This document shows positions 13,294-19,507 of a stretch of 21,961 nucleotides of DNA, in pieces. A model generated the notes under the pieces. The model saw nothing but the letters and a program-made list of their open reading frames with translations, had not been told where the DNA came from and did not search any database. Origin of the DNA: Candidatus Altimarinota bacterium. GTDB taxonomy: Bacteria > Patescibacteriota > Gracilibacteria > GCA-2401425 > JAJOLG01. How positions within the stretch are numbered: position 1 is the stretch's first letter; every line of letters starts with the position of its first letter. A program made the translations under genes and the position numbers. The stretch spans positions 1 to 21,961 of the forward strand of contig JAJOLG010000011.1 of the NCBI GenBank assembly GCA_021129445.1, read 5' to 3'.

Positions 13294-13968
13294 ATGAGTA
13301 AAAATACAATAATTCCGTCGATTAAAGACCAGGCTTTGGTTTTGGATAGACTTGCAGAATTTTATTTTTCTTGAATTGATAGTTTTGTTGAGTTGATATC
13401 TGAGATGACATGAGAAATTTCTTTTAAAAAATTAAGGGCTGTAATTTTGTATTTAGTTGAGTTTTGATATATTCAAAGGTCTTATACTTGAAAATGAAAT
13501 GAATTTTATGTAAAAATTACGAAAAAATGAATTGTTTATTATGAAGAAATTTTTTCATCTGAAAATGTAAATAATGAGAAAAAATTAACTTTTCTTGAAA
13601 AAATAAAGAAAGTTTCTGAATGAGTTGGTGCAGTAAAATGAATTGCAACATGAGTTGTTGCGGTTTTTACAATTTTATGAGTTTGATTTCATTCTGAAAT
13701 TTCAAATCAATTTTCTGCAAAAATTTTGCAAACTAATGAAAAAAATGAAATTGTTTTTACTCAAAAAGAAGCAATTAGGTTTTTAAAAAATAAATTTGAA
13801 AATGTAAAATTTAATTGTGTTTTTATTCAAAAAAATACTTTTTCTTGTAAAGTTATAAAAGATAAAAAACTTCAAGTTTTACATTGAAGTTTTGAAGAAA
13901 AAAGACTTGTTGATAAAAAAATTATTTTGAGAAAATGACCTGACTGAGAAATTTTTTTAGTTAAATAA
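13294..13968 (+). CDS. Unknown protein: winged-helix-like N-terminus, one membrane helix, C-terminal domain (224 aa)
   Basis: 224 residues with TGA as Gly. Residues about 10-90 look like a winged-helix module: helices LDRLAEFYF and SFVELISEM, then LRAVILYLVEFGYIQR as recognition-type helix and wing, and NEFYVKITKKGIVYYEEI. A glycine-rich hydrophobic segment, about residues 113-132 (VKGIATGVVAVFTILGVGF), may be one membrane helix. The remaining ~90 residues form a charged, Cys-containing domain ending VDKKIILRKGPDGEIFLVK. This arrangement could be a membrane-tethered regulator, but no known family is recognised and the DNA-binding role is inference. It lies between the murF terminator and the minus-strand fmt block; its end overlaps the neighbouring convergent gene by 12 bases. 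Confidence 0.75.
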
Positions 13969-15752: not shown

Positions 15753-18700
15753 ATGAAAAAAATTTTTAGCTTAATTTTAATTTCTATATTTTTTACAAAT
15801 ATTTTTTCTGTTCAAAATATTTTTGCAGAAGAAAAAAAAGACAATTTTCCGGATAAATCAATTCCAGAAATTACAAAAATTGAGATGGTTTATGCAAATA
15901 AAGAGTGAGATTTTTTCATTTATTGAAAAAATTTTTGAAAAGATTTGGCTAACATTGAAGTTTTAGTTGCACCAAAAAATTTTGATTTGTGATTGTGAAA
16001 ATGAGAAAAAAATCAAATCAAAGTAAGAGTTGATAAAATTTATAATACAATGTTAACCTGAAAAATTGAACAGGAGTATAAAAATTGAATTTTAATTGTA
16101 AAAAAGAAAATCTGAGAAAAAGAATTTGTTTCTTCGAATAAGAAAAAAGTGGATTTTTGACTTCCAACTTTGAAAAAAGTTGAAGCACCGAATTGATTTT
16201 TGTGATGAAAAAAGGTGATTTTTTCGTGAGAAAATTTTAAAAAACCGATTTATTGAATTTTGTGATCCGAGAAAATAATTTGTGAAAAAGATGATGAAAA
16301 CACTTGTGAAATTACAATTCCAAAAGATATAACAATTTCTTGAAAAATCTGAATTGAATCATATTGATTTGAAACTTTGCTTTGAGAAAGTGTTTCTATT
16401 GAAAAAACAGCAACTGTGAAAGTGACTTCATATTCAAACAATTTGATAAATTTTTCTGTAAAAGGTTTTGAATTTAAAGATTTGATTAAACCTTTAAAAA
16501 CAAAAAAAGATTATGATGATTTTCAGGATTGAAAGCCAATGGAGTTGAATTCTTGAATAAAAGTTTATGTTGATTGACAAAATTTAACAAAATGTACAGT
16601 TTATAAAACTTTAAGAATTTCTTGTGAAATAGATAAAGAAATTTATCAGCAATGAATTTGATATATTGATTTTTTTGGGATTAAAACACCATTTTTTTCT
16701 TATGATTTATCGGATAAAACACCATATTTAAGAGATTTTAAAAATGAAATAAAGTGGTCATCTTATCAAGATTGAAAATGACAAACTGTTGAGGGAAATA
16801 GGATTTATATCACCATGTGAGTTGAAAATTTTGAGTATCAAAGATCAAATGAGCTTTGACAAGCCACAAAAAATGATTTTGTTTTGGTGTTTTGATGAAA
16901 GGAATACAAGGTTTGAGATAGAAATTTTACCCTTTGAAGGAATAAAGTTGAGCTAAAATTAGAGGATTTTCCATCAAAAATGCAATGAGATATTTATGTA
17001 AAATTGTGAAATGTTGTTGGAAAATCAATTCCTTACGATTTTTGAGATTATATTCCAGAAATTTATAAAGTTTATAAATGAGAAAAAAAAGATGAATTTG
17101 TGATTGAGTGAAAAAATTTAACAAATTTTAATAATTTAGATGCATCGTTAAGCTTTTGAGATATTTCTTTATCGACAGCTGATATTAAAAAAATAATGTC
17201 AGAAAAAGAAAAAGAGGCAAAAGAAATTATTAAAAAATATGAAGATTGGATAAAATTGGAGGAAAAAGAAGATTTGCCAGATACTGAAAAAATAAATTGA
17301 TATAGAAATCAAATTTCAAAATGGAATTCAGTTTTGATAGATTTACAAAATTGAATTTATGAAAGAAATTATAAAGATGAATCAAAAACAGAATGAGAAA
17401 TTGTAAAAAAATCTGATACCAGAATAGTTTTTAAAGTTTTTGATGCAGGTGAATATTGAAAATCAATTTGAAAATGAGATTATACTGTTTCTGTGACTTC
17501 AAATTGACAAACTACAAATAAAATTGATTTTTTTTACGACCCAGAATATCCATTAAATGAAGCATTTGCATATCCAGAAATTGAAAAAATGTATTTTGTA
17601 AATTGAGCATGAGATCCTTCAAAAATTGAAATTAAATGAAAATTTTTAGATAGAATAAAAGAATTATATTTTACTGATTTGAAGGCACAAATTATTAAAA
17701 AAACAAAAAATTTACTTTTAGTTGAGGTTGATCCATGAGCAATTTTAAGAAAAAGGTGAACAATTATTGCCAAACTTGATGATTTTACAATGACTAGTAA
17801 TTTACTTTTTTATGAATTTATTGACGATAAAACAAATGAAATTTCTTTAAAGTGGAAGAAAATTGAGAAAAAACTTGATAAAGATTGAAATCCAATTTCT
17901 GAAAAAATTGATGAAGATAAAAAAACTTTTGAGTTATTATTTAAAAATACTTATAAAGATTTAATTTTAAAAAATTTAAAAATTAAAATTGAAAAATTAG
18001 ATAATTGAGATTTTCCATTTTATGATTTTTCTTTGAATTATCCGTGATGAAGTTTAAAGTGAGTTTATGATAAAAAATCAAAAACAATAAATTTTAAAAA
18101 TACAGATTTTTCAAAAATTATTCCTGTAAATACTGATAAAATGTACGATTTTATAATTACTTTTAATAAAATAAATTTTTGAAAGTGAGAAGTAAAAATC
18201 TCTGTTGTTGATTTAAATTTTTATGATGATTTTAAATTTCCAAAGAAAATTTCATCTAAAAAAATTTCATTTTCAAAAACTCCAAAATTTTATCAAGTTT
18301 CAGATGATTTTTGAAAATTTTGTAGAGAAATAAATTTAAAATGAGAGTTTGTGCTTTGTTGATCAGAAATTTGATTTGATAATTTGGAAGAGTCTGATGT
18401 TTTTAAAGAAGAGGTTATAAAATCTGATTTTAGAGCACCAAAAAAAGATACTTCAAAAATTGCAGATTTTGTTGATGTTGATAAAAATCAATGGTTTGAA
18501 CCATATGTTGTAGATTTATTCCAAAGGTGAATTATTCAATGATATTGAGAGAAATCAAAATTTTTTAAACCTTTAAAAACGATTACAAGGGCAGAGGCTG
18601 TAAAAATTTTGTTAATTGCAAGAAGTGAAGATGTATCAGATTTGAGTTATAAAGTTTATGCATTTGAAGATGTTCCAGAAGGGCATTGGGCGAAAAATAT

Positions 18701-19007
18701 TTTGGAATATGCTGTTAGAAATAAATTTTTGAGTCCTGTGAAAAATTTTCATTTAAATAGAGAGATTACAAGAGGTGAGGCGGCAAAGTTAATTACAAAG
18801 TTTTTTTGAAGAACGGTGCCAAAATATTCACAATTTTCACTTTTGGATTTGTGAAAACATTGGTCATCAAATCATGCAGAGTATTTGTTTCAAAATAAAA
18901 TAATTTCTTGAGTTTGAGATACAAATGAATTTAAACCTGAGAATAAAGTGACGAGATCGGAATTTGCTAAAATGATTAGTTTGGCGATGAAATATTGGGC
19001 AAGGTAA
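15753..19007 (+). CDS. Large secreted surface protein with IPT/TIG-like modules and three C-terminal SLH repeats
   Basis: 1084 residues in one frame once TGA is Gly. An N-terminal signal peptide (Lys-rich start, hydrophobic core FSLILISIFFTNIFS, cut probable near Ala26) exports it. Immunoglobulin-like IPT/TIG modules are suggested by repeated phrases of the form P-x-I-x-K-V-x...G-x-N-F, for example YGKNFGK, FSGENFKK, IEGKNLTNF and IKGKFLD. An internal charged, helical stretch (about 470-530) may be a coiled-coil spacer. Three SLH-like repeats end the protein (about 905-960, 970-1015, 1028-1084): QWFEPYVVDLFQRGII ... TITRAEAVKIL, GHWAKNILEYAVRNKF ... ITRGEAAKLIT, and HWSSNHAEYLFQNKII ... KVTRSEFAKMI. 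SLH repeats bind cell-wall polymers, so this is probably an S-layer or surface-attachment protein. A hairpin terminator follows. Confidence 0.85.
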
Positions 19008-19102: not shown

Positions 19103-19507
19103 ATGATAAAAAAAAATAATCAATTTTTTAAGGCTTTTAAAACAAATTTTTCAATAATTTTTTGGAGTATTTTTATAATTTCAACATTATTTTTTTTATC
19201 AAAATCATTTTATGAAGAAAAAAAAGTTGATGATTATTTAATTGAGTTTAAGAAACAAAATCAAAAAATTTGACAAAAAAATTTACAACAAGAACAGGAT
19301 TTAAAATTTTTTGAGTCAAAATTTTACAAAGAAATTTATGCAAAAGAAAATTTAAATCTTTTGAATAAATGAGAAAAAGTGATTATTTTTGAAGATTGAG
19401 ATAGTTGAAAAAAGTTTTTTTTGGAAGATTTTTTGAAGGAAAATTTTACTGATGAAAAAGAAATTACAAATGCACAAAAATGGGCAAAATTATTTAATTT
19501 ATATTAG
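19103..19507 (+). CDS. FtsB/DivIC-like septum formation initiator (134 aa)
   Basis: 134 residues. The architecture is that of FtsB/DivIC: short polar N-terminus (MIKKNNQFFKAFKTN), one membrane helix at about 17-33 (SIIFWSIFIISTLFFLS), then a Lys/Glu/Gln-rich periplasmic coiled coil (about 34-75) and a small C-terminal part with YKEIYAKENLNLLNKGEKVIIFED. The last phrase resembles the family's ARE-x-L-x-x-VKxGE-x-VI motif, which is the best specific evidence. FtsB-type proteins link FtsL and FtsQ in the division complex at the septal membrane. The stop overlaps the stop of the convergent dCMP deaminase gene by three bases. Family is probable rather than certain. Confidence 0.75.

Follow-up and report, generated by a model that had tools for sequence, protein, structure and literature searches.

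The window, the whole 21,961-nucleotide stretch of Candidatus Altimarinota DNA that we analyzed, is contig C2 of a genome of 672,893 bases in 77 contigs that is 94.8% complete. Its largest gene, confirmed as such after a sequence-only reading had singled it out, runs on the forward strand from an ATG at 15753 to 19007 and encodes 1084 amino acids. Under genetic code table 25, in which TGA is read as glycine, the frame contains 69 TGA codons and runs uninterrupted, free of internal stops; under table 11, TGA breaks it. The genes of the window are open only when TGA is glycine, and TGA accounts for 72 to 100% of the glycine codons in all 17 that were checked. Together with a search of the source genome that found no prfB, this share indicates that the altered code is the right one for the organism. 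Three glycines of the SLH motifs described below (G926, G930, and G1053) are TGA-coded, so the anchor of the protein needs TGA to be read correctly. No terminator-like site was found, and promoter-like sites showed no excess. The next gene downstream (19103-19507, +) is DivIC-like, with a PF04977 score of 27.1 bits that lies just below the cut-off of 28.9, and a 224-amino-acid frame at 13294-13968 (+) had no Pfam match.

The protein opens with a segment that resembles a signal peptide (residues 1 to 25; 15753-15827, +): MKK, a hydrophobic run over residues 4 to 19, and then IFA ahead of EEKK. Read by eye from sequence and hydropathy, this start supports the signal peptide proposed earlier, with a likely cleavage site after IFA (residue 25). 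Residues 36 to 843 are beta-rich in a full-chain AlphaFold model that was weak overall (mean pLDDT of 60 and pTM of 0.33). In structure comparisons, the first module (residues 36 to 135; 15858-16157, +) matched CGTase (4jcm) with a Z of 10.6 over residues 34 to 135 and Met (2uzx) with a Z of 8.8 over residues 36 to 136, while the second (residues 136 to 219; 16158-16409, +) matched 1cgt with a Z of 10.2 over its full span. We take the matched CGTase domain to be of the IPT/TIG type, and the IPT/TIG-type fold is present in both modules. The corresponding Pfam model, PF01833, was marginal: the whole protein scored 21.3 bits, barely past the cut-off of 20.9, and module 1 by itself scored 11.8. 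Homologues scored higher, with 30 (P0003), 55 (G020), and 69 bits (G340). In fold, then, modules 1 and 2 are like the IPT/TIG arrays of Met and plexin and the CGTase domain. They differ from these in lacking any sequence similarity that a PDB search with the array alone could detect, and in their putative use in a wall-anchored bacterial stalk.

The remainder of the array is less certain. Residues 220 to 693 (16410-17831, +) are predicted, at low model confidence, to form further Ig-like beta modules, on the basis of AlphaFold secondary structure, a loose match to plexin IPT3-IPT6 (residues 37 to 425, rmsd of 14.6), and homologues that carry several TIG matches. The last beta-sandwich (residues 694 to 843; 17832-18281, +) matched the integrin alpha ectodomain 3k6s at a borderline Z of 8.9. 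Pfam searches with single modules returned mostly noise, including a meaningless match to coronavirus NS6, and were set aside. The several IPT/TIG-type modules of the sequence-only reading stand for modules 1 and 2, on their fold and on the PF01833 scores of the homologues, and modules 3 to 6 are best described as low-confidence beta domains. The same reading had placed a coiled-coil spacer between the array and the SLH repeats. A helical hairpin is indeed predicted (residues 475 to 533, with helices at 475 to 502 and 511 to 533; 17175-17351, +), but it is inserted in a beta module, which it interrupts, and it is mostly gapped in eight homologues. The array is joined to the SLH part by a linker with a cysteine pair, C857 and C869 (18321-18359, +), and the C857 column is cysteine in all nine aligned homologues.

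The C terminus carries the three SLH repeats that had been noted, matched by PF00395 in three stretches at 74.3 bits (E of 7.3e-21; cut-off of 20.8). Specifically, the first repeat spans residues 904 to 951 (18462-18605, +; W914, G930, and R946), the second spans residues 968 to 1013 (18654-18791, +; W979 and R1007, with no Gly29), and the third spans residues 1027 to 1080 (18831-18992, +; W1037, G1053, and R1068). Every repeat has a TRAE-type motif: ITRAE at 944, ITRGE at 1005, and VTRSE at 1066. When this part was modeled with an alignment of 20 related SLH parts, the pLDDT was 91.3 and the pTM was 0.88. The model matched the SLH domain of Sap (3PYW) with a Z of 21.3 over 174 residues at 2.1 A, and Sap and SpaA SLH structures with bound pyruvylated sugars with Z values of 17 to 19. 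A missing trimer fold had been named beforehand as grounds for giving up the SLH assignment; the predicted structure has the fold.

The residues that contact ligand allow a finer comparison. A functional groove in SpaA draws on all three repeats, one supplying Arg43, the following one Gly29, and the remaining one Trp13 (PMC6081394). Here, this trio is complete in grooves G1 and G3, and G2 lacks Gly29, with NKFLSP at the expected position; G1 and G3 should therefore bind ligand and G2 should not. In the homologue of the order-mate, as read from its sequence, the same groove is degenerate, with Asn for that Gly29 and Phe for the Trp13 of the third repeat, and G1 and G3 are again the complete ones. 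Sap of Bacillus anthracis (3PYW and 6BT4; Z of 21.3 and 19.4 at 2.1 A) shares the three-repeat fold and the TRAE-type motifs at about 24% identity. However, the trimer of the protein described here is C-terminal, and groove G2, which is occupied in Sap, is the one without Gly29. SpaA of Paenibacillus alvei in complex with 4,6-pyruvyl-ManNAc (6CWH and 7SV4; fold Z of about 17) likewise has a full set of Trp13, Gly29, and Arg43 in two of its grooves, but these are not the same two: SpaA uses G1 and G2 (PMC6081394), whereas G1 and G3 are complete here.

A search for csaB had been suggested along with the SLH assignment, and it turned up a PF04230 gene outside the window at C6:8280-9368. Its product gave a full-length match to TIGR03609 (CsaB; E of 8.5e-44) but scored 150.1 bits, below the equivalog cut-off of 213.1, and for this reason we call it csaB-like. 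A search against PDB sequences gave no useful match. Equivalents of the P. alvei CsaB residues R148, R306, H308, K328, and R207 (PMC10435577), which were assigned by motif and spacing rather than by direct alignment to the P. alvei enzyme, are present in the csaB-like protein, and the spacings R148-R207 (59) and H308-K328 (20) are identical. All 33 of the class members compared keep the equivalents of R148, R306, H308, and K328 unchanged; of these, R148, H308, and K328 are PEP-binding. The csaB-like protein departs from P. alvei CsaB in having Ala for F16, in addition to its lower TIGR03609 score. Because a pyruvyltransferase of this kind with intact PEP-binding residues is encoded in the same genome, the SLH trimer probably binds a pyruvylated glycan, which gives a likely answer to the question about the ligand that the sequence-only reading had raised. 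The genome also encodes a LytR-CpsA-Psr domain protein. A limited literature search yielded no paper that connects csaB with Patescibacteria.

The sugar that is pyruvylated is a different matter. Another point of departure from P. alvei is mnaA, the UDP-GlcNAc 2-epimerase gene: judged by a single Pfam model (PF02350), which matched in 18 of 40 genomes, neither the source genome nor its order-mate has a match. With both genomes about 95% complete, two chance gaps are unlikely. The result puts the classical ManNAc ligand in doubt. In an order that has csaB-like and SLH proteins and no recognizable epimerase, the cell could pyruvylate another sugar or take ManNAc from a host or prey, although we consider it rather improbable that the ligand is something other than self-made ManNAc in either of these ways.

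SLH proteins are not confined to this locus. At least five others are encoded in the source genome: an M23 protein with three SLH repeats and a second three-repeat protein on C18, a DPBB and CAP protein with three repeats and an Ig/PG_binding_1/SLH protein on C7, and a 218-amino-acid three-repeat protein on C41. The M23 and DPBB/CAP domains are wall-enzyme domains, which supports a role at the wall. On C7 (L013:1389-11122), rfbC-, rfbA-, and rfbB-like dTDP-rhamnose genes and two glycosyltransferases, identified by eye, adjoin two of the SLH proteins. In a set of 40 genomes of relatives, the source included, SLH repeats occur in all 40, at 2 to 69 per genome, and PF04230 occurs in 39, always together with SLH. 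Within this set (G001-G039 plus the source, G000), the genomes that read TGA as glycine (G000, G011, G014, G022, G023, G031, and G033) have few repeats, 2 to 11, and the standard-code genomes have 17 to 69. A tendency of csaB to lie beside SLH genes was considered and dropped; with SLH genes so numerous, a handful of close pairs carries little weight. The protein belongs to an already known kind, the SLH-anchored surface protein, and SLH proteins have been reported for the same broad group, the Gracilibacteria (PMC6851277, PMC9530719). The array family and the csaB-like partner are not described in the portions of those two reports that we consulted.

A full-protein scan of the named genomes yielded no relative, and BLAST with the array as a single sequence gave one clear relative outside the source genome. 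A profile built from three sequences was needed to make the array family visible; with it, members were recovered from 10 of the 353 genomes of the class, spread over six genera. Inspection by eye found an SLH C terminus in four of them: the protein described here, that of the order-mate, and those of G002 and G034, both from family f3, with the G034 sequence incomplete at the edge of the fetched stretch. The members from genus g21 (G020, G029, G166, and G039) and from G340 have no SLH repeats by the same inspection; they stop shortly past the cysteine column, with a short, basic tail. The G339 sequence is disturbed by ambiguous bases. By this comparison of sequences, what the family shares is the array, and the anchor differs from member to member.

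Taken together, the sequence and the models make it probable that the gene encodes an SLH-anchored, secreted stalk or coat protein. After export, the C-terminal trimer would grip, without a covalent bond, a pyruvylated glycan in the wall of the same cell; the csaB-like pyruvyltransferase would make that glycan, and the IPT/TIG-type array would stand outward. One rival reading concerns the ligand. The SLH part might bind peptidoglycan or another pyruvate-free polymer, with the csaB-like enzyme serving a different glycan, and the missing mnaA, the breadth of the PF04230 family, the score under the equivalog cut-off, and the OmpM-type single SLH domains among the profile matches are in keeping with such an arrangement. 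Nevertheless, two grooves retain every type of pyruvyl-contact residue named for SpaA, and SLH and PF04230 co-occur in 39 of the 40 relatives; we view a pyruvate-free ligand as unlikely.

Other readings concern what the array does beyond the wall. An anchor like that of Sap, SpaA, and SbsB would suit a main S-layer protein, whose array would assemble with its own kind to form a lattice covering the wall, and some Patescibacteria are reported to have S-layers (PMC13293708). Yet, at least five further SLH proteins are encoded in the genome, and the array family turned up in few genomes of the class (10 of 353); we consider a lattice former somewhat unlikely. The sequence-only reading had instead proposed contact with a host or prey. 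Adhesins often have Ig-like stalks, the SiiE and BspA folds gave weak matches, and large surface proteins are presumed to mediate attachment in related predatory bacteria (PMC8080830). But domain searches of the protein found no adhesin-specific domain, no genomic link to host or prey contact emerged, the fold matches are those of generic Ig-like arrays, and SLH proteins are widespread in the class, with repeats in all 40 relatives. No observation made here points specifically to contact with a host, and we regard a host adhesin as unlikely.

The genetic code of this genome provides a separate lead, one that is more surprising than the surface protein. According to a 2026 review, the reading of TGA as glycine occurs in the Gracilibacteria/JAEDAM01 lineage only and dates from its last common ancestor (PMC13293708). 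The code of the order-mate G001, Candidatus Peregrinibacteria bacterium NORP126, is the standard one, and prfB is present in its genome; the prfB model matched there at two places (C9:33739-34764 and C15:62174-63190), once above and once below the cut-off, and the second of these matches may be a different protein of the release-factor type. For these comparisons, we used the whole window, loci L191 and L070 of G001, and locus L192 of G033, a genome that reads TGA as glycine. The PNPase tree paired the window with NORP126 (97/93), apart from G033, and the csaB-like tree also paired the two order-mates (93/78), likewise away from other lineages that read TGA as glycine. Forcing the two TGA-reading genomes together in the PNPase tree cost 20.8 log units, with an AU p of only 0.048 and with G033 on a long branch. 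Identity was higher to G001 than to G033 for PNPase (57.7% versus 42.9%) and Der (50.5% versus 40.0%) and almost tied for SecA (52.2% versus 50.9%). Because the only order-mate compared is a standard-code organism and pairs with the source genome in both trees, a separate origin of the TGA-to-glycine reassignment in this genome is possible. If this placement is true, the single-origin view will need to be revised.

For the biology of the organism, our analysis suggests that a pyruvylated wall glycan is a likely ligand for surface proteins even in a genome this small. With no epimerase recognized, one can now ask concretely which sugar is pyruvylated, and if ManNAc were derived from a host or prey, the surface coat of the cell would be tied to the supply of that host. 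At the level of the family, the results define a testable group of proteins in which a conserved Ig-like array ends in an SLH anchor in some lineages only. More generally, with SLH repeats in all 40 relatives, the display of proteins on the wall in this class is open to the methods developed for Bacillus and Paenibacillus.
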